Origin: a virus | Direction: 5' to 3' (one strand) | Length of the DNA: 36,982 nt | Virus record (IMG/VR): IMGVR_UViG_3300035015_000016 | Coordinates: 1-36,982 of that record | Shown here: in pieces, positions 1,039 through 36,982 of the stretch | Layout of the letters: each line of letters starts with the position of its first letter | Numbering within the stretch: position 1 is the stretch's first letter | Position numbers and translations under genes: made by a program | The notes under the pieces: model-generated | What the model saw: only the letters and a program-made list of their open reading frames with translations | Databases searched by the model: none | Told to the model about the DNA's origin: nothing

Positions 1039-2169
1039 TCACCCCGCCTCCCGCTTCGCTACGGCTGTGCTGAGCTTGCCCGCAGTCCCGGGCTGCAGTT
1101 TCATCCCGGTTGCCGCCTCGGCTGCGCGCAGGCCTGCGTAAAAGGCTTCGTGCACCTTGGCGGTGGTCCCTTCGGCGTGGGTGTACGTGCGGCGCATCAG
1201 GTTGGTGTCTGACCACCCACCCCATGCGCCGGCAGCCTTCTCGTCGACGCTCTGCCGGACATTCATTTCCTGACCGAAGCCGTGACGGCCGGCGCTGTGG
1301 AACGGGATGAACTCGATCCCGGCCCGCTTGCAGGCGGTCTCCCAGCCCTTCCTCGGCCCGCTGCGGCTGCTCCACCCGAAGAGGCGCAGGTTGTCCTTTT
1401 TGCGTTCCCATCCCCGCGGATAGAGCGGCGGCAGGTTCGCCAGCTCGACCACTAGTTCGGTCGGGATGTCGAGCCAGCGATCGGGCGAGCCCTTCGCGCC
1501 GGGGATGCAGGCCTTGCCGTTCTGCAAATCGAGATGCTGGCCGGGGTGCATCTCGCACGCCTGGCTGATCCGCGCGCCGGTGCAGAACATCAGCAGCGCG
1601 AGCGCGCCATGACGGGCGCTGGCGTGTTCACGGAAAGCCAATAGCCATTCCCAACTGCCAGGCGGATAACGGCGGCGGCCAGAGCGTCCCCGCGCCTTGT
1701 CCTGCGCGACGGCCTCGGCCTTAGAATAACCTTTGATCCGGATAGGTGGGCATTTGCCCAGATCGTGCGCGTTGTTAATCACCGCGCGGATCGGGCTGAT
1801 AACCTGCCGCGTCCATGAAGCGGCGCCGCTGTCGGGGTAGAAGTGCGCACCGAGCTCGCGGACAAAGCGCGGAGTGATCTGGCTGATCAGCATCTCGCCA
1901 ATCTTCTCAACCATTGGGAGCAGGTATCCGGCGGTCTTCGGGTCTGCTTCGTAAAGCAGCACCGCCTCGGAGAAGGTCAGCCCTGCTTCGTCCCCGAGAA
2001 GGTGACGACGGATCCGGCGGGCTTCCTCTTCGCGGATCCAGGCGCGTGCGCCCGCTTCATCAGATGTTCCCGTGCTGCAGCGGTAGTAGTCTGTGATGGG
2101 GATGCCTTGGCACTCGATCCGCCCGCGAACCCACCATGTCGCACCCCGCTGGTAGCATTCGAGTGGCAT
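1039..2169 (-). CDS. int: Tyrosine-type phage integrase
   Basis: 376 aa site-specific recombinase expected to insert and excise the prophage. Catalytic features: Arg in FCTGARISQ (about residue 200), the HSAGRHGFG box II (about 291-299, Arg 295), a Trp/His-region GGWSD, and the Tyr nucleophile in RRTYTH (about 329). The N-terminal CYQRGATWWVRGRI followed by YYRCSTG is typical of phage and island integrases of alphaproteobacteria. The ATG at 2169 is chosen because the protein family begins this way. The 5' end lies inside the reading frame of the upstream excisionase-like gene (193-bp overlap). Its C-terminal end abuts the toxin gene, so attL should lie left of 1039, possibly outside the window. 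Confidence 0.93.
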   Translation of the reverse strand: MPLECYQRGATWWVRGRIECQGIPITDYYRCSTGTSDEAGARAWIREEEARRIRRHLLGDEAGLTFSEAVLLYEADPKTAGYLLPMVEKIGEMLISQITPRFVRELGAHFYPDSGAASWTRQVISPIRAVINNAHDLGKCPPIRIKGYSKAEAVAQDKARGRSGRRRYPPGSWEWLLAFREHASARHGALALLMFCTGARISQACEMHPGQHLDLQNGKACIPGAKGSPDRWLDIPTELVVELANLPPLYPRGWERKKDNLRLFGWSSRSGPRKGWETACKRAGIEFIPFHSAGRHGFGQEMNVRQSVDEKAAGAWGGWSDTNLMRRTYTHAEGTTAKVHEAFYAGLRAAEAATGMKLQPGTAGKLSTAVAKREAG

Positions 2170-3054: not shown

Positions 3055-3598
3055 GGGTCTGGGGCTCCCTCTGCTGGCGCGCCTCGGCGCGGAGTTCGTG
3101 GGTGATGCGGGCGAGGCCAACGGTCCGGCGCCCGGGTTCGCAGTGCCAGCGCAGGGCAATCACCCGTTGCGCCTGGTCTTCAAGCTGCTCTGAAAAGCCG
3201 CTGTGTTCGGCCGCGAAGGCAGCAATGCGAGTGATCGCCTGGTCGAGCGCGTCGCGCCGGTCCTGTTCGCTGGCGGGGCTGGCTGGCTCGCCTTCGCCGT
3301 CGCAGATGAATTCCCAGTCGCGGACCAGATCGGCGAATGCGCGCAGCTCGCGCCCGGCCTCTTCGGGTGCGAGCTGGCCTGCGGCGATGCGCTTGGGGAA
3401 GGATTCCCGGCGCGCGGCCAGCATCGTTTCCGCCATGCGGCGCAGATCGTGGAAGTCGCGCCACGCCGGCGGCGGTTCGGGACAGATGATCGCGGGGCGA
3501 CCGTCTGCAGGCCAACGACGTTCATTCGGGCCGACCGTCTCGTCGACCGAGGGCGCGGACCATCGGCCCACGGGGCGGGATGCGAGTGCGCGGCTCAT
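3041..3598 (-). CDS. Hypothetical early protein, 185 aa
   Basis: Not recognised. ATG 3598 overlaps the stop of the primase-helicase gene (ATGA), so it is translationally coupled to it. The protein is helical and charged, with a WRDFHDLRRMAETMLAARRES segment and EEAGRELRAFADLVRDWEFI in the middle, and no obvious membrane or metal site. The coupling suggests a replication accessory role, but nothing in the sequence proves it. Confidence 0.6.
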   Translation of the reverse strand: MSRALASRPVGRWSAPSVDETVGPNERRWPADGRPAIICPEPPPAWRDFHDLRRMAETMLAARRESFPKRIAAGQLAPEEAGRELRAFADLVRDWEFICDGEGEPASPASEQDRRDALDQAITRIAAFAAEHSGFSEQLEDQAQRVIALRWHCEPGRRTVGLARITHELRAEARQQREPQTHVEA

Positions 3599-6255
3599 GG
3601 CTGGAACTCCTGGTCAACCGGGCGCTGGAAGACCCAGCACCATTGGGGGCTGCCATCAGGCGGATTGACCTTGCGGTAGCCGAGGAACTTGCGGGACTTG
3701 GATCCGCTCATCACCTTTTTCAGCGCATCGAGCGGCGGGGGGATGATGTTGTTGCGCCGGCAGCGGCTTTCGAAGTCGGGCAGGTTGATCGCAATCAGGT
3801 TTTCGGATCGCCTGCTGCGGTTCAAGCTGTTGCCCACGAGGTCGGCATCGTGCTGTTCGCGCGCCAGCAGGTAATCGACCTTCTCCCAGAAGTCGGCCAC
3901 CAGCGGATGATCGCCGCCAGCTGACTGCTGGCGATCGAGCGCCATGCGGTCGACCTCTTGAATGGCTCTTGCCACCCATTCGGACTGACAATTGGGGAAC
4001 AGGTGCGGCAGCGTTTCGAGCGCTGCGGCGAGCTGGCTGTGGCATTTGATCGGACGGGCATTCTTGAGCCCGTCAACCCGCTTGCCCATCGCACGATCGT
4101 GGTACTGGAACCGCTCGAAGAAGTGTTTCAGCCAGGCGGCTTCCTGCCGGACGACATGCACCAGCGTGCCGCTGACCTCTTCCATCGGCCAGCTTTCGAG
4201 CCTGAGAGCTGCCTCGCGGGAGTGTTCGCTCCACAGCGACTTGTCGATCGACATCGACATCAGCCGCTCAAGCACCGCCGGGATCGCGTCGATCCGGTCG
4301 TTCTGCATCAGGTAAATCGAACCGAGGAACGGCGATTCCTCGGTCTCAAACCCACCGGTCTTTTTGCCGACACCGCGCGGGGAGCGGCCATTGTAAAGCA
4401 CCAGCAGCTCGTTGAAGTCGAACTGGCGGTTGTGCGATCCGCGTTCGCTGTCGCGTCCGCCTTCGATCAAGCCGACAGGAAGGTTGCTGACCTTGACCAG
4501 TGAGCGGGCGAGATAGGCGCGGGTGGCCTTGTTCGGATCGAAGCCTTCGTACCCTGCCCGCCCGGTCAGCTTCCATAGGAATTCAACAAGCGTCGACTTG
4601 CCCGATCCCGGCGGGCCTGTGATCTCGAGGAAGCCCAGCGATTTGTGCCTGTCGCGGATCTGCACCGCGAACATCGACATAACGAAGAACGAAAGCGCGA
4701 TCAGGCCGCGCGGCCCAAAGGCGGTCCAGATATCGGGCAGCCAGTCGGCGGCGACCTTGTCAGGGTCGTAGACGATATCGAGCATCCGCTCGGCCCCGCG
4801 CAGCTTCACCGCCCGCGATCCGACGTCGAAGTAATCTTCGGAATTGACCTTCAGGACGCGGCCTTGGTGCACTGCCAGGTCGCCCAGCAGCCAGACGCCG
4901 GGATCCTTAGCGTAGCCCAGTGATGGGATCGGCTCGACCGTCTTGAGGCGACGGGTCTGGCTTTTGATGATCCGGTCGAGCTGCTCGGCCGTGCCGGTCC
5001 ACATCCCAGCGAAGGCCATCAGCCGCTTCTTGAATTCGGCCGAGTTCGCACAGGCAGACGACGAAAAGCGCGCCTTTACCGGGCGGCTTTCATAGGGGAA
5101 ATCGATCCGCAGGAAGTAGTGGGTCTCGTCCGCAATCTCATCGCGCTCGCGGTATAGAAGCCGGAAGGCGCAGTTGCAGATCTCGTGGTAATCGATCTTG
5201 CGGCCGTCATCCTCGTCATGGGTGACCTTGACCCAGAAGATGCGGCTATCGTGCCGCATGTCGAAACTGGTGATCGAGCGCGCGCCCTTGGTCGCCCGAT
5301 CGACGATCAGCTTGGCTTTTTCGTGCGGAGTCTCGGCGATCGTGATCGCGCCGTTGAACATGTATTCTTCGAGCGCCTTAGGACCGAGCGGGCCATCATC
5401 CTTATCGCCGCGCCAACCCATCTGCCGCAGCCACAGATCATTCCAGTCGAGCTTCGAACCTTCACCATCGGGACGCACCTGGGCGGCGGTTGCCTTCCAC
5501 CCTTCGCGCCGGGCGCGGGCAACGAACTTGCGGCTGAAGCTGACCCCGGCGCTGCCGACGTCGAAGGCAAAAACCAGATCAGGCCGGGTGGCGATGCCAT
5601 CGGCCTGCAGCTGGGCTGCCAGATCGGCGAGGAACTTCTCGGGGTAGACGTTGCACGTCATGGCCGACACAGCGGCTAGGCCTGCTTGGGTCAGCGCGGT
5701 GGCATCGAAGATCCCTTCGGTGATCCATACCCGCGGTGCCTTCGCCAATGTGGCGAGCGTGGTGCCATTGGGCATCCAGCATAGCCCGCGCCAGCTGCCG
5801 CCCTTGCGGAAGTGGGCCTTTCGCGCGAACCGGCCGGGCCGATCGATGATCCGTTCCCAATAGGTATCGCCGAGCGGGAAGCGGACGGTGGCAGCGGTCT
5901 CCCCGGTTTCGTAATCGCGGAAGACTTCCTGAGAGAACAACCCGCGCAGCAGCCGCAGATCGAGCCCGCGCTCGTGATCGAGGTAGGCTTCGGCGGTGGC
6001 GTTGGGGTTTTCCGGTGTCGGTGGCTGGCGCTTGGTCCAATCTTCGAACAGGTCGGGCAGCAGATTGCGGACGCTGTCTTCCCACCCGCACCGCTCGGCG
6101 CGCCCGCAACGGACGATCTTCGGTTCGATCGCGGCGCAATAGGCCTCGCGCTTCCCGCACTGGGGGCACGTGCCTTCCTGCAGCCAATCGCCTTTGACTT
6201 TGCGAAACTGGAACTTGGTCTTCAGTTCCTTGATGATGTTGTCCTGCAGGCTCAC
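3595..6255 (-). CDS. Primase-helicase (Zn finger, TOPRIM, P-loop ATPase)
   Basis: 886 aa from GTG 6255, which overlaps the upstream stop as GTGA; the open frame continues to 6291 but that extension lacks coupling. Order of parts: an N-terminal zinc finger (TCPQCGKREAYC, then RCGRAERCGW, within residues ~28-60); a TOPRIM primase core with Glu in WITEGIFDATAL (~173) and Asp in LVFAFDVGSAG (~228); a C-terminal ATPase with Walker A GPPGSGKST (~545-553), then YNGRSPRG and YLMQNDR motifs resembling phage helicase sensors. It should prime and unwind DNA for phage replication. It replaces the gpA nickase module of P2. It ends in ATGA with the next gene. Confidence 0.88.
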   Translation of the reverse strand: MSLQDNIIKELKTKFQFRKVKGDWLQEGTCPQCGKREAYCAAIEPKIVRCGRAERCGWEDSVRNLLPDLFEDWTKRQPPTPENPNATAEAYLDHERGLDLRLLRGLFSQEVFRDYETGETAATVRFPLGDTYWERIIDRPGRFARKAHFRKGGSWRGLCWMPNGTTLATLAKAPRVWITEGIFDATALTQAGLAAVSAMTCNVYPEKFLADLAAQLQADGIATRPDLVFAFDVGSAGVSFSRKFVARARREGWKATAAQVRPDGEGSKLDWNDLWLRQMGWRGDKDDGPLGPKALEEYMFNGAITIAETPHEKAKLIVDRATKGARSITSFDMRHDSRIFWVKVTHDEDDGRKIDYHEICNCAFRLLYRERDEIADETHYFLRIDFPYESRPVKARFSSSACANSAEFKKRLMAFAGMWTGTAEQLDRIIKSQTRRLKTVEPIPSLGYAKDPGVWLLGDLAVHQGRVLKVNSEDYFDVGSRAVKLRGAERMLDIVYDPDKVAADWLPDIWTAFGPRGLIALSFFVMSMFAVQIRDRHKSLGFLEITGPPGSGKSTLVEFLWKLTGRAGYEGFDPNKATRAYLARSLVKVSNLPVGLIEGGRDSERGSHNRQFDFNELLVLYNGRSPRGVGKKTGGFETEESPFLGSIYLMQNDRIDAIPAVLERLMSMSIDKSLWSEHSREAALRLESWPMEEVSGTLVHVVRQEAAWLKHFFERFQYHDRAMGKRVDGLKNARPIKCHSQLAAALETLPHLFPNCQSEWVARAIQEVDRMALDRQQSAGGDHPLVADFWEKVDYLLAREQHDADLVGNSLNRSRRSENLIAINLPDFESRCRRNNIIPPPLDALKKVMSGSKSRKFLGYRKVNPPDGSPQWCWVFQRPVDQEFQP

Positions 6256-6554
6256 TGTGCGGCGAGCTCCCGGACGCTGTCTTCTAGCCACCGGTTCGCG
6301 CGCTGGCGCATGGCGTCGCGCTCGTTGCGCAGACGCTGGATCCTGATGGCGACCCGATCTGCATTTTCCCGCGCCGGCAGCTTGCCGATGACGAAGGCGG
6401 CAGCGATCCGGCGGTTACGGCGCGACCAGCGGCGATGGGTTGTATCGAACGGGAAGCCGGTGACATGCCGATCGCCGACCAAGTCGACGCGGGCGACGCC
6501 GTAGCAATCGCCATCACGGTAGAGGACGCGGTCCCCGGGGCGGATACCGTTCAT
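6252..6554 (-). CDS. Hypothetical early protein, 100 aa
   Basis: Not recognised. Starts at ATG 6554 (overlapping the stop of the 93-aa gene, ATGA) and ends in the GTGA overlap with the primase-helicase. The first ~35 residues resemble a small beta-barrel (RPGDRVLYRDGDCYGVARV), and the rest is a basic helix (QRLRNERDAMRQRANRWLE). Basic residues and position suggest nucleic-acid contact, as inference only. Confidence 0.6.
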   Translation of the reverse strand: MNGIRPGDRVLYRDGDCYGVARVDLVGDRHVTGFPFDTTHRRWSRRNRRIAAAFVIGKLPARENADRVAIRIQRLRNERDAMRQRANRWLEDSVRELAAQ

Positions 6555-12219: not shown

Positions 12220-12614
12220 CGCGGCTGCTCAGGATCAACTCGCTTCAGGTCCAGCGCGAAGTCGATCACGCGGGGCCGACCGCCGGCGATGATGTGCCGC
12301 CAGCGTTCATCGACATTGAGGATCACGAAGTCGCCCAGCACCTCACCATTGCCGAGGGTCACCGGCCACGCCTCCCCCGATGCGGCCATCTCGCGTAGCC
12401 TCTCGATATCGGAATAGGTGCCCGCAATCTCGGGCACGAGCACGCCGTTGAGGGTGAGCTTCTCCTCACCCGGGCCAAGGAATTGCGCGGCGGCGCGGGC
12501 GCCATATCGTTCGTTCTCGCCCCAGCGCCATCCGGCGCGCCGCTCCAGCTCGTTGTAAGCCAAGCGCGGAATGCCGAACACAAACATGCCGATCGAGAGC
12601 AGCTGCTCATTCAT
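12216..12614 (-). CDS. U: Phage tail protein U
   Basis: 132 aa from ATG 12614. The LLSIGMFVFGIPRLAYNELERR opening and the late DFVILNVDERWRHIIAGGRPR segment are typical of gpU, a tail-completion factor. Upstream in-frame sequence to 12692 belongs to the tape measure gene in another frame and is not used. It overlaps the end of the tape measure gene by 8 bp. Confidence 0.9.
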   Translation of the reverse strand: MNEQLLSIGMFVFGIPRLAYNELERRAGWRWGENERYGARAAAQFLGPGEEKLTLNGVLVPEIAGTYSDIERLREMAASGEAWPVTLGNGEVLGDFVILNVDERWRHIIAGGRPRVIDFALDLKRVDPEQPR

Positions 12615-15600
12615 CGCGGTACGCTCCCAACCGGCTGCTGGTGCTGCGGCGTTCGATGATGTCGGCAACGCGGCGGGCGAGCTGCTCGCCATCCTCGCCA
12701 GGCTGCTGCTGGATCGTGATGTTGAGGGTCATCCCAGCGGCGGGTGCACTGGGACGAAGGGGCACGCGATCCTCTCGTTCGCGGCCCGCGACCGGCGTGG
12801 CGAACTGCGCCTGCGGTTGAAGAGCTTCCTGCCGGGCCTCAAGCTTGGCGACAGATGCCATCTGCGGAATCACCCGCATCAAAGCATCAGGCAGATCCAG
12901 CTGGCGGGCGATATCTAGATCGACCGGTAACCGCATGCGGCCAAGTGCCGGCAAGCGTGGGACAGCGGGCTCCGCGACGTCCGAACCGATTGCTAGATCA
13001 TCGGATCGGGGCAGCTGCGGCAAGGCTGGTGCGGTGATCGCCGACTGGATCCGCAGCGCCTCCATGGTCGGCAGGCGTGGCGCTTGCAGCGCGGTGATCT
13101 CTGCGCCGAACGCGAGATCATCAGGCCGGGGCAGCTGCGGCAAAGCAAGGGAAGCGATCGCCGACTGGATCCGCAGCGTCTCCATGGTCGGCAGGCGTGG
13201 CGCTTGCAGCGCGGTGATCTGTGCGCCGAACGCGAGATCATCAGGCCGGGGCAGCTGCGGCAAAACAGGGGAAGCGATCGCAGATTGGATCCGCAGCGCC
13301 TCCATGGTCGGCAGGCGTGGCGCTTGCGGCGCGGCGATCTCTGTGCCGAACGCCAGATCACCGGGCTGCGCCATAGCGGGCGCTGGCAGCGTCGGCACCG
13401 TCATGGCAGCCGCCACCGCAACCGCCATTCGCCGCGCTGCGCCCACCGCACCCGGAGCGCTGCGATCAAGGCCGATCGCCATCCCCTCTGTCATGAAGCC
13501 GCCCATTTCGGCGAACAGCCGCGAGGGCGATTTGATGCCAAGGAAGGCGCGGATGTTGTCGACCCCGCGCATCACCACCGACTTGAGTGCATTCCACACT
13601 GCACCTGGTGCCGCCTGAATGCCTCGGACCAGCCCATTGATGATCGCCCGACCATAAGACGCCATCTGTCCGCCCAGCCCCTGCAGCCACGCGATCCCTT
13701 CGCCGAAGGCCCCGCGAATCATCTGCCATGCTTGCCCGATCATGGCCGTTCCGGCGGCAAAGGCCGACCGCACCGAAGACCAATGGGTAGTCACCAGCGT
13801 TCCGATCAGGCCCAGCGGCCCGAACAGCGCTGGGAGCAGGTGGAGCTTGCCCTTAATCCATTCCCAGGCGGTGCCCATCCAGCCCATGGCCGTATCAAAC
13901 CCGGCCCGGATCGCATCCCAATTGGTGATCACCGCGTGCGCCGCCAGCCCGATCGGTCCGAACAGGCCGGGGAAGGCCATGAACTTGGCCTTGATCCATT
14001 CCCAGACGCCGCCGAGCCACCCGACAGCCGTGGCGAATGCGGCCTTGATCGTGTCCCAGTGGGTGTAGATCAGGTAAGCGGCCACGCCGATCCCGACCGC
14101 GATGGCTGTGATCCCGAGCACCATAGGGTTGGCCATCATCATGAGCCCGGCTCTCATTACCCCCTTGGCCATGAACAGCGCCGCCGTGCGTAGGAGGGTG
14201 AAGCCTTTGACCGCAGCCGTGCCAAGCCCCGATGTCATCGCGCGCGCTGCCTGGCGAAGGCGAACGAAGGACCGAGCGGCGTTGGGGAAGGCACGCACGA
14301 TGCTGCTGGCGTTCCTCCATTTGGCATAGACTCCCCAGGCGCTGGCCATCGGTCTGAGAATAGTCCCGAAGACGATCTGCAGCCCGCCCAGTGCCACCTT
14401 GGCAGCGCCGGCGCCCGCGACCAGATAAAGCAGTCCGGTGGTGAGTTGCGGATTCGCGGCCGCGAAGTCACCAACTGCGCTGGCCATTCCGGCCGCGATG
14501 GTGAGGAACTGGCTGGCGATCGGCAGTAGCTTGGTACCCAGCACCAGGGCGGTGGTCGAAAGCTGCACCCGGAACGCCTGCCAGGCGACCATGCCATCAT
14601 TCACTTCACGCTGATCGAAGGCGACATCGATCGTCCCGCTCGAGTTCGCGATCTCACCGCGGATCCTGCGGTATTCGTCCATGTTCTGGATCAGGGCGAG
14701 CAGACCCATCTGTGCCTGCTGATCCTCGACGCCCCAGCCCAGCTTTCGCATGTCGCCGCCGGTGGCCTGCTTGGCGATGACCGCGAAGGCCTCCATCGTC
14801 GTCATGCCCTGCGCCTCGAGCTTGCGAAGCGCGGACGGAAGATCGACGCCGAAGTTCTTCTGGAACGCCCGGATCGTGCCCGGCGCATTGATCTTGGCCA
14901 TCAGGTTGGCGATGTTGTTCGCCGCCTCGTCAGCCGATCCGGCGGTGTTCATCGCCACCTGCAATGCCGCGGTGAGATCAGTCACCGCCGGAACGCCGGT
15001 TTGTCCAAGCGCCTGCATCCGCGCGGTCAGCGTCGGGAACCACCGGGCCATGTCCTTGATCTCGAACGCGCCTGCATTGCTGCCAGCAGCCATGATATCG
15101 AAGGCGCGAGCGGTATCGGACAGCGGAACCTTGAGGTTGTTGATATTGGCGTAAGCCGCCGCAGCCGCATCAGCGAGCTCAACTTTGAACGCCGTGCCAA
15201 GCCGTCCGATCGGCTCCGCCAGCTTCACCGCCTGGCGGGGATCCATACCGAAGCCCGCCAGCACGTCGACCGCCGCGCGCATATCTTCGGGCAGCTGATG
15301 CGTGGCACGAGAGGCGGCGAGGATATAACCCTGCATCCGGATCAATTCAGCGTTGGTCAGCCCCGCTTTCTGCTGGAGATCGACCATCCCGCTGGAGAAC
15401 TCCATCGCGCCCTTGGTCGCGAGGATGAAAGGCGCGAGGATGGCAGCGCCTTCAACGGCGTTTTCCTGCCCCGAGGCGACCAATTCCTCCGCCCGCTGGT
15501 GCATCGCCGAGACGGTGTTATCGATCGACATGATCTGGCGCTGTCGTTCGACCGCGCCGTTCGCGCGGCTTACAGCGTCCTCGAGCGCGCGCTCCCGCTC

Positions 15601-15801
15601 GATCAGTTCGGTGACGTTCCCCGTTGCGCCTTCCAGCTCCCTGCGGAGGTCGGCAAGTTCGCGGTCGGCTGCGCGCGCCGCACGGGTGAGACGGGCGAGC
15701 GACTGCCCGCTCCGTTCCCCGAGCCCGACGATTTTCTTCAACGGCCCCGAAAGCTTGTCGACGCCGTTGAGGAGGATGGTCAGGGCAAGCTTGCGATCCA
15801 A
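12607..15801 (-). CDS. T: Tail tape measure protein
   Basis: 1064 aa from TTG 15801, chosen for the AAGGAGG ribosome site 6 nt upstream and the 1-bp gap to the E' stop; the longer frame to 15855 would read through the E' gene. Layout: N-terminal LTILLNGVDKLSGPLKKIVG, coiled coil (~20-80), the TMP core with QQKAGLT and LRKLEAQGMTT (~100-330), hydrophobic segments near ~455-485 and ~555-580, Trp-rich repeats (THWDTIKAAF, then ITNWDAIRAGF, TTHWSSVRSAF), and a Pro-rich C-terminal 40-aa repeat region. Sets tail length. P2 gpT is about 815 aa, so this tail should be longer. Confidence 0.93.
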   Translation of the reverse strand: MDRKLALTILLNGVDKLSGPLKKIVGLGERSGQSLARLTRAARAADRELADLRRELEGATGNVTELIERERALEDAVSRANGAVERQRQIMSIDNTVSAMHQRAEELVASGQENAVEGAAILAPFILATKGAMEFSSGMVDLQQKAGLTNAELIRMQGYILAASRATHQLPEDMRAAVDVLAGFGMDPRQAVKLAEPIGRLGTAFKVELADAAAAAYANINNLKVPLSDTARAFDIMAAGSNAGAFEIKDMARWFPTLTARMQALGQTGVPAVTDLTAALQVAMNTAGSADEAANNIANLMAKINAPGTIRAFQKNFGVDLPSALRKLEAQGMTTMEAFAVIAKQATGGDMRKLGWGVEDQQAQMGLLALIQNMDEYRRIRGEIANSSGTIDVAFDQREVNDGMVAWQAFRVQLSTTALVLGTKLLPIASQFLTIAAGMASAVGDFAAANPQLTTGLLYLVAGAGAAKVALGGLQIVFGTILRPMASAWGVYAKWRNASSIVRAFPNAARSFVRLRQAARAMTSGLGTAAVKGFTLLRTAALFMAKGVMRAGLMMMANPMVLGITAIAVGIGVAAYLIYTHWDTIKAAFATAVGWLGGVWEWIKAKFMAFPGLFGPIGLAAHAVITNWDAIRAGFDTAMGWMGTAWEWIKGKLHLLPALFGPLGLIGTLVTTHWSSVRSAFAAGTAMIGQAWQMIRGAFGEGIAWLQGLGGQMASYGRAIINGLVRGIQAAPGAVWNALKSVVMRGVDNIRAFLGIKSPSRLFAEMGGFMTEGMAIGLDRSAPGAVGAARRMAVAVAAAMTVPTLPAPAMAQPGDLAFGTEIAAPQAPRLPTMEALRIQSAIASPVLPQLPRPDDLAFGAQITALQAPRLPTMETLRIQSAIASLALPQLPRPDDLAFGAEITALQAPRLPTMEALRIQSAITAPALPQLPRSDDLAIGSDVAEPAVPRLPALGRMRLPVDLDIARQLDLPDALMRVIPQMASVAKLEARQEALQPQAQFATPVAGREREDRVPLRPSAPAAGMTLNITIQQQPGEDGEQLARRVADIIERRSTSSRLGAYRDE
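12985..13385 (-). repeat. Tandem 120-bp (40-aa) repeats in the tape measure gene
   Basis: Three-plus near-identical 120-bp units in frame, with matching 20-mers recurring at 13021, 13141 and 13261. Each encodes a block with APRLPTMEALRIQSAI and LPQLPRPDDLAFGAE; divergent half units flank both sides. Such in-frame tandem units can change copy number without a frameshift. Confidence 0.85.
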
Positions 15802-15802
15802 C

Positions 15803-16000
15803 TCAATCCTCCTTCCCGGCGTGCGATGCATTCCAGCGCTTGATCGCCCGCTCACGCCAGCGCAGTAGTTCCTCGAAGCTCAACCGCTCAAGCTGATCGA
15901 GCGGCCAGTGGAACACGAATGCGATGTCGGCGATCAGCTCGTCGACGTCTGATCCTGCCCCATGACCCGAGCGATCATGTCTCGGTCCGCCTTCGACATA
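15803..16000 (-). CDS. E' extension of tail assembly chaperone (made by -1 frameshift)
   Basis: Reading in the -1 frame after the slippery site gives 65 residues with no stop until 15803. The last ~45 (DVDELIADIAFVFHWPLDQL, then EELLRWRERAIKRWN) match the GpE/E' family of P2 tail chaperones. There is no good independent start, so it is expected only as the C-terminal half of a 168-aa E-E' fusion. The stop is directly before the tape measure start, as in P2, where E and E+E' load onto T. Confidence 0.85.
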   Translation of the reverse strand, partial: YVEGGPRHDRSGHGAGSDVDELIADIAFVFHWPLDQLERLSFEELLRWRERAIKRWNASHAGKED

Positions 16001-32840: not shown

Positions 32841-32959
32841 GAACCGGGCGCGCCAACGCCCGAATTCCGACGAATTGCACTCGTCCTGTCCCAACCGGTC
32901 CCGCCTTGGGATCAGCCCGCCTGCCGACTCGGCAGCGGAACAGATATGGAACAAATGCG

Positions 32960-33781
32960 ATGGAGTCGAATCCCTATTACCCGCACGAGCCGGTTGACCC
33001 GGTCCGCCCTGCCGCTGCGTACATCGGGGGCAAGCGAGCGCTCGCAAAGCGCCTGGTCGCGATGATCGATGCCGTGCCGCACGATGCCTATTGCGAGGGC
33101 TTTGTCGGCATGGGCGGCGTGTTCTTCCGCCGATCGGCTAGGCCCAAGAGCGAGACGATCAACGACTGGTCACAGGATGTGGCCACCTTCTTCCGGGTGC
33201 TGCAGCATCATTACGTCGCCTTCCTCGACATGCTCCGCTTCCAGATCACTAGCCGGGCCAACTTCGAGCTGCTGGTGCGGCAGGATCCGGGCACGCTCAC
33301 CGACTTGCAGCGATCGGCTCGCTTCCTCTACCTGCAGCGGCTGAGCTTTGGCGGGAAGGTCGATGGGCGCGGGTACGGCGTCGACTATGCAGCGCCCGCG
33401 CGCTTCGACGTTACAAAGCTGGGTCCATTGCTCGAGGCGATCCATGAACGACTTGCCCGGGTAAAGATCGAGCGCCTGCCCTGGAGCGACTTCATCGCCC
33501 GCTATGACCGGCCTGGCACGCTGTTCTACCTCGATCCGCCCTACTACGGCTGCGAAGGCGACTATGGCCGGGAGCTGTTTGATCGCGACCAGTTCGCGCT
33601 GATGGCTGAGCAGCTGGCGGGCCTGAAGGGCCGCTTCATCCTCTCGATCAATGATCATCCCGAGGTGCGCCGGATCTTCGCGGGCTTTGCATTTCACGAA
33701 GAGGCGGTGCGCTACACCGTGGGCGGGATGCACAAGAGCCGCGATTTCGGCGAGCTGATCATCAGTGGCGGGGCAGATTGA
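32960..33781 (+). CDS. D12-class DNA adenine N6-methylase
   Basis: 273 aa. SAM-binding motif AAAYIGGKRALAKR (~18-30) and AFVG-like EGFVGMGGVFF, then catalytic YLDPPYYGCEGDY (~190). These define Dam/D12 methylases, which methylate adenine, often in GATC. Target specificity cannot be read from sequence. Placed right after Q in the direction of the P-Q operon; may protect phage DNA from host restriction. No paired endonuclease seen. Confidence 0.9.
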   Translation: MESNPYYPHEPVDPVRPAAAYIGGKRALAKRLVAMIDAVPHDAYCEGFVGMGGVFFRRSARPKSETINDWSQDVATFFRVLQHHYVAFLDMLRFQITSRANFELLVRQDPGTLTDLQRSARFLYLQRLSFGGKVDGRGYGVDYAAPARFDVTKLGPLLEAIHERLARVKIERLPWSDFIARYDRPGTLFYLDPPYYGCEGDYGRELFDRDQFALMAEQLAGLKGRFILSINDHPEVRRIFAGFAFHEEAVRYTVGGMHKSRDFGELIISGGAD

Positions 33782-34210: not shown

Positions 34211-35896
34211 TCAAGCTGGCATTCCCTTGCGACTAGGATCGCCAATCCAATCTCGAGCAGTTTCAATGAAACTCCAGACGTCACCCTTGTCCGGACGAAC
34301 ATAATTTTTGGCGGAAGGGTCGGCCCCCATTGCCTCAAACATGCGTAAAAGCCAGTCTTGTTTAGATGGCTTTGGCGACACCAAATCGGAGAGCCAACTC
34401 TCGAGTTCCCCTACAGGTACGAATAATACGCCGAATTCCGCAAATTCGTTGAGGACTGCTCTTGCCGCCACTGCTTCCTTTGAGCCGAGAGTTATCAATC
34501 CTTGTTGCTTCAAGGCCTTCTTTTCGACCGCTTTCATCTGACTACTCAATGCTGCACGGTTCTCCTGCAGTCTATGGAGTGCTGCCCCATCTAGATCGAC
34601 CAACGGCCAGATCTTCCAGAAATCTTTGTGCATCATGACATCGAGATCGAAGATTGCGAGGGCCGGAACTCCGATCCGACGAAGTGGCTCAACCACCCGA
34701 GGGATGGTTTGCCAGTTCTGAGCATTCATGAACAAGCAGTCCTCGAGTCCTCTTGAATCAGCGATGAGCCTACTATTCACCTCTTCGTAGAAAGCGCGGT
34801 CGGTATCTGATTCACAGACAACTGCGCCGCGGTGGAAAAGCGCTCGAAGAGAGTGCGCCGATCTGAGCAGAGGATCGTGCATTAGCCGGGTGAGCTCCTC
34901 AGGCTCCAGCGAGCGGGCAGAGCCAACCCCACTTTCGTAGGACAGCCTTACGATTCGAAGATCCGGCGTTGCATGCATGCATCCGAGAAGCAGCTCCGAG
35001 CTGTGCGTAGCAATTACGAGAGACGCCTGCCGGCTTCGGGCGGTCTCTGCGAGTGCGCGTCCTACCCGCCTAGCAAGTGTAGGATGCAAAAAGGCCTCAG
35101 GCTCGTCGACTAAGATGATGCGATCAGGGAGGCTCAACACCGCTGAAATAAGACCGACCGAGGTTTGTACGCCGTCCCCGAGAGACTGGATATCATTGGC
35201 TTCAAACATAAACTGTGATGTTTCTGGGCCCATGCACTTTTCGTCGATATGGTCTTCTGGATCTTCGTCGCTAAGACGAATCCTCAACGTCTGCATTCCG
35301 GTTGCGTCAATTACGAAGTGCTTCCCGAAGGCCTCTTTGGTGAAGTTGCGGATTAGCTTTCGCTCTTCATCCGCGACAAAAAGGTACCACAATAGATTTT
35401 CGGCAAGTTCTTTGATGTCACCCGACGGCTTCGGATCAACCAACTCGAAACGAGTTCGCCCATCTAAACGTCTCGTGAAGAATGCGACGAATTGTGTATG
35501 GATCGATCGATGATCTTGATGTTCTATCCAGCTTTCGAAGTCTCGCTCACGAATCTGAGTTTGTTGCTCGCGATCACTTCCACTGATGCGAGGGCGTTTG
35601 CACCTGATGTATTCCGCATCAGCGGGATCATCTAGACGCGTTTTCGAACGAAAAACTTCCATCATTTCGATGATGGTCGTGGAATTGTTCGGTATCTGTA
35701 CGTTGACTGCCTCTAAGACCGTTGAAGGCGGTTGTAGCGAACAGCAGAATTCCTCAATCTCACGAAGGGTTTGGCTCTTGCCGGCATTGTTCGGCCCGAC
35801 AAGAACCGTGACGTGAGGGCAATCAACTTGGAGTGGGGGCTGATCAGGTTTACTTCCAACTCTAAATCGAAGCCTTCGCAGCCCAAGCTCATTCAT
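34211..35896 (-). CDS. OLD-like ATPase fused to TOPRIM nuclease-like domain
   Basis: 561 aa from ATG 35896. ABC-type ATPase: Walker A GPNNAGKS (~31-38), signature-like SLGDGVQTSVGL (~250), Walker B RIILVDEPEAFLHP (~270-283), H-loop VIATHSSELL (~305). C-terminal TOPRIM: Glu in VVCESDTDRAFYEEV (~380), DxD in ALAIFDLDVMM (~430). That order is the OLD family (P2 Old, GajA); fused PARIS AriA-AriB is another option. AT-rich compared with the phage core. It sits beyond Q at the right edge, where P2 also carries old and tin. No helicase partner is adjacent. Confidence 0.8.
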   Translation of the reverse strand: MNELGLRRLRFRVGSKPDQPPLQVDCPHVTVLVGPNNAGKSQTLREIEEFCCSLQPPSTVLEAVNVQIPNNSTTIIEMMEVFRSKTRLDDPADAEYIRCKRPRISGSDREQQTQIRERDFESWIEHQDHRSIHTQFVAFFTRRLDGRTRFELVDPKPSGDIKELAENLLWYLFVADEERKLIRNFTKEAFGKHFVIDATGMQTLRIRLSDEDPEDHIDEKCMGPETSQFMFEANDIQSLGDGVQTSVGLISAVLSLPDRIILVDEPEAFLHPTLARRVGRALAETARSRQASLVIATHSSELLLGCMHATPDLRIVRLSYESGVGSARSLEPEELTRLMHDPLLRSAHSLRALFHRGAVVCESDTDRAFYEEVNSRLIADSRGLEDCLFMNAQNWQTIPRVVEPLRRIGVPALAIFDLDVMMHKDFWKIWPLVDLDGAALHRLQENRAALSSQMKAVEKKALKQQGLITLGSKEAVAARAVLNEFAEFGVLFVPVGELESWLSDLVSPKPSKQDWLLRMFEAMGADPSAKNYVRPDKGDVWSFIETARDWIGDPSRKGMPA

Positions 35897-36130
35897 AGCT
35901 CCCTCCCTTGTACTGTCTCGGTATGCCTGCTGCCGGCTTACACGCCAAGGCAGTTCGTATTGGCAGAGCAGATCTGCTTCGTCCGTGAGATGCTGGTGAC
36001 CAGAATTCTGCAAATTCAGGCTTGGACCTCAGCATGAATTCTCCCAAGGCGCCGCGCTTGCCCCCACGCCTCGCCCTCATGCTTTCTGCCCGCTTTTTAT
36101 GCAGTCGGGGGACTGCCGGTGCAATCTGAC

Positions 36131-36419
36131 AGAGGGGGGTATGTGCGGGAAACACGGTACATTTGGAATATTGGCTGAAACTGTCACGCAAAGCACTGAA
36201 TTTGCTAGACGAAAATATACCGTCAGCAATGGAATATGATGGAATATTTTAGAGCCTTCAACGGTACATCATTGAAAACATTGAAGTTACAAAAGTGAAA
36301 ATGTTCCATTGGACCAACGGTATAATGTTCCATCGATATTCCAAAAATATACCGTTCTAAATAATTGAATTTGTGAGAATGTTCCAAATGTACCGTGTTT
36401 CCCGCACATACCCCCCTCT
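36131..36419. repeat. 289-bp AT-rich element with perfect 38-bp terminal inverted repeats
   Basis: Arms at 36131-36168 and 36382-36419 are exact reverse complements (outer ends AGAGGGGGGTATGTGCGGGA and its complement). Inside are four more TACCGT/ACGGTA copies: 36218 with 36261 (6 bp) and 36316-36324 with 36348-36356 (9 bp) can each form inner hairpins, so the strand can fold into a three-way, cloverleaf-like shape. TGGAATAT/GTTCCA motifs recur around them. No transposase and no convincing ORF. No target-site duplication is visible at the ends. The GC-poor body contrasts with the host sequence. Best description: MITE-like repeat or structured RNA/ssDNA element. The rest of the 35897-36670 gap shows no gene. 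Confidence 0.7.
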
Positions 36420-36547
36420 TCAAAACGGCTGACGGGAAAGTGCCATTTTTCGCCGATCACTCGGATCGCCGGTACCAGGGCTCGGAAGGAAATGGAGTTA
36501 TGCAGTCTGATGCGCACGGGGGCATCGGGACCCACTTACTCCAAAGG

Positions 36548-36565
36548 TGGAGCGGGTGAAGGGAA
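36548..36565 (-). other. tRNA-Gly 3'-end-like fragment (possible attachment site remnant)
   Basis: On the minus strand these 18 bases read TTCCCTTCACCCGCTCCA, which is how alphaproteobacterial tRNA-Gly genes end (T-arm 3' side, acceptor strand CACCCGC, discriminator, CCA). The rest of a tRNA is absent. Integrases that target tRNA-Gly leave such pieces at the far end of islands. Tied by recollection of tRNA-Gly sequences, not a search. It also lies in the loop of a 10-bp hairpin (36539-36548 with 36569-36578). Confidence 0.4.
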
Positions 36566-36670
36566 CCGACCTTTAGAGTGAGTGGCTTTGGCGTCTTGCT
36601 CGTTATCGCAGCTGCTAGTGGCGGCTTTCGGGAAATGGGCGAGCCAAGCTCAATGTCGGAAGCTGGGTGG

Positions 36671-36982
36671 TTAGCGGCCGTCCCGCCGATATGGCCTCAA
36701 GCGGCCCAGTCGCCGGGCAAGCCGATGCGGCATCCTTATCTCGAACAGGCGGAGTTCGTATTTCGCATCGCTATTGCCGCCTCGGGCGGCGCAATACAGC
36801 CATCGTCGGTAACCGGCGAGATCTCCGATATTGTAGTAGGACATCGCCATATTCTGCGCCGCGTTATCCTCGCCCAAACGATATGCGCGATAAGTCAGGC
36901 CGAGGGGGGTGGCTCTATTCCAGATGCGACCGAGCTCCTTCATAGAACCAGTCTGGGCGTTCCGATTGGCAAGATCCAACAT
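36671..36982 (-). CDS. Sel1-like repeat protein (possibly 5'-incomplete)
   Basis: 103 aa reading to the window edge, where its first codon ATG coincides with the last bases, so it may be complete or truncated. Sel1-like repeats: LTYRAYRLGEDNAAQNMAMS, YYNIGDLAGYRRWLYCAARG, then GNSDAKYELRLFE. Such repeats mediate protein contacts, often in signalling or secretion. Host or island gene rather than phage core. Confidence 0.55.
   Translation of the reverse strand: MLDLANRNAQTGSMKELGRIWNRATPLGLTYRAYRLGEDNAAQNMAMSYYNIGDLAGYRRWLYCAARGGNSDAKYELRLFEIRMPHRLARRLGRLRPYRRDGR

Follow-up and report, generated by a model that had tools for sequence, protein, structure and literature searches.

The AT-rich element at positions 36131–36419 of a P2-like phage genome is very probably a replication origin or a cis-required replication region, with the primase-helicase of the same phage as its initiator. 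It is best read as an iteron origin of the PICI/SaPI and P4 ori/crr kind that resides in a P2-like phage without gpA. Rolling-circle replication started by gpA is the textbook mode of P2 and its relatives. A large branch of P2-like phages from alpha- and gammaproteobacteria apparently uses a primase-helicase and an iteron origin instead. Several lines of evidence for the origin were obtained directly, namely the anatomy of the element, its conservation at fixed spacing, its linkage to the initiator gene, the co-diversification of the boxes with a winged helix, and the predicted structure of the protein. Throughout, "the window" refers to the whole stretch of DNA that was analysed, the virus record IMGVR_UViG_3300035015_000016 of 36,982 bases.

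The phage and the surroundings of the element

The window is a P2-like phage, with a gene set that includes a gpO-type scaffold protease, a large terminase (gpP-like and Terminase_6 domains), and an Ogr-type activator. The window lacks P2 gpA (PF05840), as do 57/58 records tested. The element and its landmarks are as follows.

36131–36419, unstranded: proposed replication origin, an AT-rich iteron array with 42-bp inverted arms (fixed-length homologues in about 40 phages)
36131–36172, plus strand: left arm, a G-rich outer spacer and boxes 1 and 2 (family-wide outer-arm complementarity above the shuffled level)
36378–36419, minus strand: right arm, boxes 12 and 13 and a C-rich outer spacer (one coordinated two-sided change relative to phage Mae-JY29)
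36057–36075, minus strand: cos, P2-type, 19-nt cohesive-end sequence GGCGAGGCGTGGGGGCAAG (the same 19 nt tandemly duplicated in Mae-JY29)
36535–36565, minus strand: probable attachment-site core (identical to the sequence at the end of a tRNA-Gly(ccc) gene, L026)

The 19-nt core GGCGAGGCGTGGGGGCAAG resembles the cohesive end of P2, GGCGAGGCGGGGAAAGCAC (quoted in PMC3931495). In the assembly of Mae-JY29 (L003:19908–19945, PP438421.1) this 19-nt sequence occurs twice in tandem, as expected if both cohesive ends were kept, and the assembly is probably a circularised one that retained both. The region 36049–36108, to the left of the element, is found again in other related phages. The element is the right-hand neighbour of cos and starts 55 bp from it; cos is a landmark adjoining the proposed origin and no part of it. 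Judged from its sequence, 36535–36565 is the probable attachment-site core, and the homology between the window and Mae-JY29 stops nearby, at about 36526.

Microcystis phage Mae-JY29 (L003) carries a full-length copy of the element that is 96.9% identical, and covers 88% of the right-hand 25 kb of the window at 92% identity. Its host label is Microcystis aeruginosa; all of the close relatives found are Sphingomonadales prophages, and the true host may therefore be a Sphingomonad living in the Microcystis culture. The integrases of the two phages differ in class, tyrosine in the window (1039–2169, minus strand) and large serine in Mae-JY29 (L003:20699–22264, minus strand), which is a recent exchange of the integration module. 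The interval between the portal gene and cos is the position of defence genes in P2-like phages. In the window it holds an OLD-like ATPase/TOPRIM nuclease (34211–36013, minus strand) and a D12-class adenine methyltransferase (32906–33781, plus strand), and in Mae-JY29 it contains no OLD-sized gene. The alignment with Mae-JY29 also brings out a repeat of about 120 bp at 13069–13366 of the window, inside a long ORF (12607–15855, minus strand) that is possibly the tape-measure gene.

Anatomy of the element

The perfect 38-bp inverted ends that a sequence-only reading had pointed out were confirmed, and they form the outer portion of longer arms of 42 nt each that are complementary at 41/42 positions (98%). 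The inverted-repeat score of the element is 40, whereas 60 random 330-bp segments of the same record average 9 and do not exceed 16. The predicted folds of both strands are much more stable than those of dinucleotide shuffles (z of -12.7 and -11.6), as is expected of any long inverted repeat. That reading had also described an AT-rich body in GC-rich DNA with no ORF; the interior has 35% G+C and the flanks 55%, and the absence of an ORF was borne out. A scan of positions 35500–36982 against Rfam returned zero families at the gathering threshold. A sub-threshold match to bicoid_3 is put down to the long stem.

Thirteen nine-base boxes make up the array. Boxes on the minus strand are given as the complement.

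36154–36162, plus strand: box 1, ACGGTACAT
36163–36171, plus strand: box 2, TTGGAATAT
36215–36223, minus strand: box 3, complement ACGGTATAT
36229–36237, plus strand: box 4, ATGGAATAT
36239–36247, plus strand: box 5, ATGGAATAT
36261–36269, plus strand: box 6, ACGGTACAT
36301–36309, minus strand: box 7, complement ATGGAACAT
36317–36325, plus strand: box 8, ACGGTATAA
36325–36333, minus strand: box 9, complement ATGGAACAT
36336–36344, minus strand: box 10, complement TTGGAATAT
36347–36355, minus strand: box 11, complement ACGGTATAT
36379–36387, minus strand: box 12, complement TTGGAACAT
36388–36396, minus strand: box 13, complement ACGGTACAT

Every element of the family (about 40 homologues) has 13 nine-base boxes at fixed positions and in the orientation ++-+++-+-----. 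The frame of the box is partly constant, N-Y-V-Y-W-A-Y-M-T, and its first half is variable. In the window the boxes are of two sub-types, ACGGTAYAW and WTGGAAYAT. The reuse of one hexamer and the recurrent GTTCCA-type motif noticed earlier are both real (ACGGTA and TACCGT occur three times each, TGGAAYAT and its complement seven times); hexamer and octamer represent two variants of a single nine-base box. Such a compact array of many short copies is what characterizes an iteron origin.

The letters of the boxes are uniform within a phage and different between phages, other phages having CCTAACAT, CCCTACAT, CCTCACAT, CGCAACAT, and so on. Within an element the variable letters agree at 0.73, versus 0.44 when elements are shuffled (0/500). 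The agreement is 0.734 for boxes in the same orientation, which are unable to pair, and 0.730 for boxes in opposite orientation. In the element of locus L020, boxes 1 and 2 have exchanged identities relative to 13 and 12, and as a result the terminal pairing fails. Uniformity regardless of orientation, together with the exchange in L020, is thus better explained by a single reader acting in trans than by base-pairing.

The outer arms behave differently from the boxes. At outer-arm positions that lie outside the boxes, complementarity exceeds that of shuffled partners (0.75 v 0.61 and 0.52 v 0.43; 0/1000), which is more than iterons alone explain, and the only change that separates the arms of the window from those of Mae-JY29 is coordinated between the two sides. 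For these two reasons, the arms may hold a hairpin or a two-fold protein site.

A family of fixed-length elements

With the terminase as bait, 8 loci were retrieved from viruses and 75 from genomes. In many of these loci elements of the same plan but with quite different letters come after cos, and their orientation relative to the terminase is identical in all terminase-fetched loci. The 21 elements delimited by hand measure 285–291 bp, those of Asticcacaulis 301 and 305 bp, and their alignment is nearly gapless; the loops are as constant in length as the stems. A profile search recovered 34 loci, and 40 after iteration and the addition of loci, with one element per phage. Since the letters differ in every phage, scans of viral and GTDB contigs for the exact pattern of the window arms gave zero matches, and homologues could be reached only via their phage context. 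BLAST against plasmids returned nothing relevant. With homologues in about 40 phages, the idea of an isolated relic with only one copy anywhere is refuted.

Some phages have cos without the element, among them L008 and L005 (terminase 97% identical). In these two the post-cos region is a different one (L005:11887–12700 and L008:14940–16000), with a minus-strand frame that looks helix-turn-helix-like by eye. gpA was sought in the element-free phages as an alternative replication gene and was not found. One Sphingomonas genome, G068, contains two near-identical elements, in prophages L143 (C44) and L144 (C41). In L143 just 12 kb separates the element from the primase gene, and the orientation of the two relative to each other is reversed, so that this prophage appears to have been rearranged.

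Linkage to the primase-helicase gene

The proposed initiator is encoded at the other end of the window map.

3595–6291, minus strand: predicted initiator, an 898-aa protein with a DnaG-type (Toprim) primase, a helicase, and a C-terminal winged helix, phrog_1139
3622–3819, minus strand: winged-helix coding region (residues 825–890), the predicted iteron reader (AlphaFold model and specificity regression)

The 898-aa protein has a Toprim domain and an ATPase core and belongs to phrog_1139, 'DNA primase'. Genome loci entered the linkage count when the contig extended 28 kb or more from the terminase in one direction and 4.5 kb or more in the other. Element and primase occur together on one contig in 19 of them, the element only in 1 (L029), the primase only in 1 (L077), and neither in 29 (Fisher p = 1.3e-11). 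The 'primase only' locus, L077, comes from a gammaproteobacterium and carries at 14259–14570 a diverged array that follows the same plan and is bordered by inverted repeats. In L029, which has the element without a phrog_1139 gene, loss of the gene is plausible because the early region holds transposase-bearing ORFs. In a forward test that started from unseen prophage primases, the element was found 12–35 kb away in 5/5 testable cases (L137, L140, L143, L144, and L145), which are only partly independent since L143 and L144 are close relatives in the same genome; a sixth case, G006, hit a contig edge and is not among the five. The distance between element and initiator gene in Sphingomonad phages is ~30 kb on the prophage map. 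Linkage of this kind could in principle reflect another gene of the same replication module.

Bacillus phage vB_BpuM-ZY1 (OR820920.1), listed from Bacillus pumilus, encodes a primase with 38% identity to that of the window. Primases like this one were otherwise seen only in proteobacterial phages, and the Bacillus host label may be wrong.

Analogous arrays are present in primase-bearing phages of Pseudomonas, Stenotrophomonas, and Escherichia. Named phages with a phrog_1139-type primase were located by protein search. A phage-specific box array with the same grammar forms the densest cluster of repeats in the genomes of Dobby, phi3, ESSI2_ev239, and UFJF_PfPro; in Smp131 the array shares first place in density with G+C-rich coding repeats. 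As a control, the repeat detector recovers the annotated crr of P4. The arrays of the named phages have inverted-repeat borders spanning 279–359 bp that score well above background, except in PfPro, whose arms score merely at the background maximum. Among four further gammaproteobacterial genomes with full-length primases a clear array was found in G297 only; none was detected in G235 and G334, and G283 is on a 17-kb contig that is too short to judge. L077 and G297 escaped the crude repeat-count detector but were both picked up by an inverted-repeat scan. The array is 171 bp from cos in Smp131 and 163 bp in Dobby; it is placed elsewhere in phi3, directly 3' of the primase gene, and in G297, 1.2 kb 3' of that gene. 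The position beside cos is therefore probably a matter of genome organisation and not of function.

The winged helix as predicted reader of the boxes

A first Mantel test on whole alignments gave general co-variation (r 0.54) with weak peaks, which was resolved by a box-specific regression. In this regression the differences in box letters were regressed on the distances of five regions of the primase in 22 non-redundant pairs on one contig. Residues 825–890, the winged helix, alone explain the box difference (beta 0.54, permutation p = 0.002); coefficients are negative for the primase, middle, and helicase regions and 0.11, not significant, for the helical region. When five contig-split pairs are added, the winged-helix beta is 0.53 (0/2000 permutations). 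The permutations ignore phylogeny, and the other regions of the same primase, which share that phylogeny, serve as the control. In statistical terms, linkage and winged-helix tracking together identify an initiator from the same replicon with matched specificity, as an iteron origin has.

An AlphaFold model of residues 690–898 (mean pLDDT 90.5) ends in the order beta-alpha-alpha-beta-beta, from which residues 825–890 are predicted to form a winged helix. The full-length model (mean pLDDT 86) matches SCCmec Cch (5dgk, E 1e-14) and SaPIBov1 Rep (8tch, E 6e-12), and further PriRep1 and the catalytic domains of DnaG primases (E about 1e-6). The C-terminal part alone has Cch and SaPI Rep again as top matches, with weak scores, and the best structural match of the winged helix alone has an E of 0.05; given these middling scores, the structural claim rests on the full-length model. 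In SaPI Rep and Cch2 it is the C-terminal domain that recognises iteron origins (PMC7581432). The C-terminal domain of the primase is also matched by phrog_20645, a family of ~156 aa without known function that was noted at the C-terminal ends of L092 and L123. Proteins of phrog_20645 may read boxes of this kind on their own.

Alternative explanations

Linkage alone cannot separate the genes of one module, and the element could then be an operator or centromere array for another DNA-binding protein, such as a repressor or a partition protein, that travels with the primase. This is unlikely, because, within the primase, the winged helix is the sole region tracked by the box difference, and because the same plan recurs in phages from other genera whose early gene sets differ. 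We consider it decidedly unlikely that the functional product is a structured RNA, a cloverleaf with kissing loops in which the boxes are stems. Such an RNA would agree with the very stable fold predicted for both strands, with the two-sided change between the window and Mae-JY29, and with the complementarity of the outer arms. It does not account for same-orientation boxes that agree as well as pairing ones, nor for separate hairpins that carry the same letters without need; moreover, the box swap in L020 breaks the terminal pairing, loop lengths are as fixed as stem lengths, and no Rfam family exceeds the threshold. Structured RNA, one of the functions proposed from the sequence, is thus disfavoured as the main one.

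The sequence-only reading had also named a replication or packaging signal. The replication half of this suggestion is strongly supported by primase linkage and box specificity. For the packaging half, a cosB-like signal for the terminase, there is only a very slight probability: the element adjoins cos in the window, in Smp131 and Dobby, and in the Sphingomonad phages with cos located, but the element is missing from L005, whose terminase is 97% identical and whose cos is the same, L008 likewise has cos without it, the arrays of phi3 and G297 are beside the primase gene instead, and the box letters differ between phages with 76–79% identical terminases. Arm-type sites of an integrase or excisionase are extremely improbable. 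A tRNA or an attachment core does lie within a few hundred bp of the element in L007, L026, L028, and the window; yet elements that are 97% identical accompany a tyrosine integrase in the window and a serine integrase in Mae-JY29, which also tells against the recombinase substrate envisaged earlier. The chance that the inverted ends and the lack of an ORF are those of a MITE or another non-autonomous mobile element with perfect terminal repeats is close to nil. The element is single-copy in each phage and at one location, its flanks show no target duplication, and a copy-number check with the L017 element in 25 host genomes gave matches only inside prophage elements that were already known, none of them dispersed. 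The earlier description of the element as beyond a simple MITE was therefore right.

Proposed mechanism and its implications

For a replication origin served by the primase-helicase, the reading preferred here, the steps are drawn from the array, its conservation, the linkage, the co-diversification, the predicted structure, and the named relatives. From these we infer that the primase-helicase binds the iterons, unwinds the DNA, and initiates replication. The C-terminal winged helix of the protein would dock on the 13 nine-base iterons, and oligomers would form on the inverted outer pairs (boxes 1–2 and 12–13) and on the inner array. The AT-rich middle would melt under the assembled oligomers. 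Loading of the helicase would follow, probably in the form of two oppositely directed rings, and strand synthesis would be started by the fused primase domain. Two rings placed by the inverted outer pairs, with forks moving both ways, are plausible given the symmetry of these pairs, and are the least certain part of the model. The GC skew of five complete phages gave no clear origin signal.

A further proposal is made tentatively, as a possibility that we would not yet favour: more than 35 initiator–iteron pairs could constitute a natural library in which each phage replicates only its own origin, and the arms could act as a cruciform or a two-fold loading platform. The winged helix would read the variable letters in the constant frame of the box, and it is this letter-specific reading that would limit each phage to its own origin. 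If true, co-resident P2-like phages would be incompatible at the level of replication, the protein–DNA code would be readable, and arms of this type would be a feature not described for PICI or P4 origins. The about 35 natural pairs of reader domain and boxes make the specificity code directly testable. If confirmed, they could yield orthogonal minimal replicons for Sphingomonads.

Comparison with known origins

A literature search, with most subscription papers outside its reach, found no description of these P2-like phage origins. The arrangement of PICI iterons around an AT-rich region was called unique among known bacterial replicons in a 2018 study (PMC6092414); a similar arrangement is now seen in complete phages. 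PICI and SaPI origins have two sets of element-specific iterons around the AT-rich region (PMC6092414). The element likewise has inverted box pairs at both ends of an interior with 35% G+C, but boxes also lie inside the AT-rich part. Its initiator is predicted by the model to share with Rep/Cch-type proteins (SaPIBov1 Rep, PriRep1) the helicase fold and the C-terminal DNA-binding domain. The differences are that the origins of the window type are in complete P2-like phages and not in satellites, that the outer iterons are within long inverted arms, and that the primase of the initiator is DnaG-type and fused. Also, the PICI origin is located just 3' of rep, whereas the element of the window is beside cos and ~30 kb from the initiator gene; the PICI adjacency is nonetheless approached by phi3 (directly 3') and G297 (1.2 kb 3').

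P4 ori/crr resembles the element in its size of about 300 bp, in its 8-bp type 1 repeats with 9 bp spacing and in both orientations, and in its iteron GGTGAACA, which has the same A-rich core. P4 also has a fused primase-helicase, and the match of P4 alpha to phrog_1139 covers the primase domain (E 8e-23), whereas the helicase halves show no sequence-level match. In contrast to the single array with inverted ends, crr consists of two 120-bp direct repeats without inverted ends, and P4 has two annotated cis regions (ori and crr) where just one was found in the window. SCCmec Cch provides the closest solved structure (5dgk, E 1e-14), and the C-terminal domain of Cch2 binds the repeats of the putative Cch2 origin (PMC7581432). 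That origin differs in having three 5-nt iterons beside the gene, and its primase is a separate, unrelated protein pair.

The element shares the working principle of PICI/SaPI and P4 origins and departs from each in one defining feature, as it is without the adjacency to the initiator gene of the former and without the two direct 120-bp repeats of the latter. PICI-type origins and these phage origins may share ancestry.
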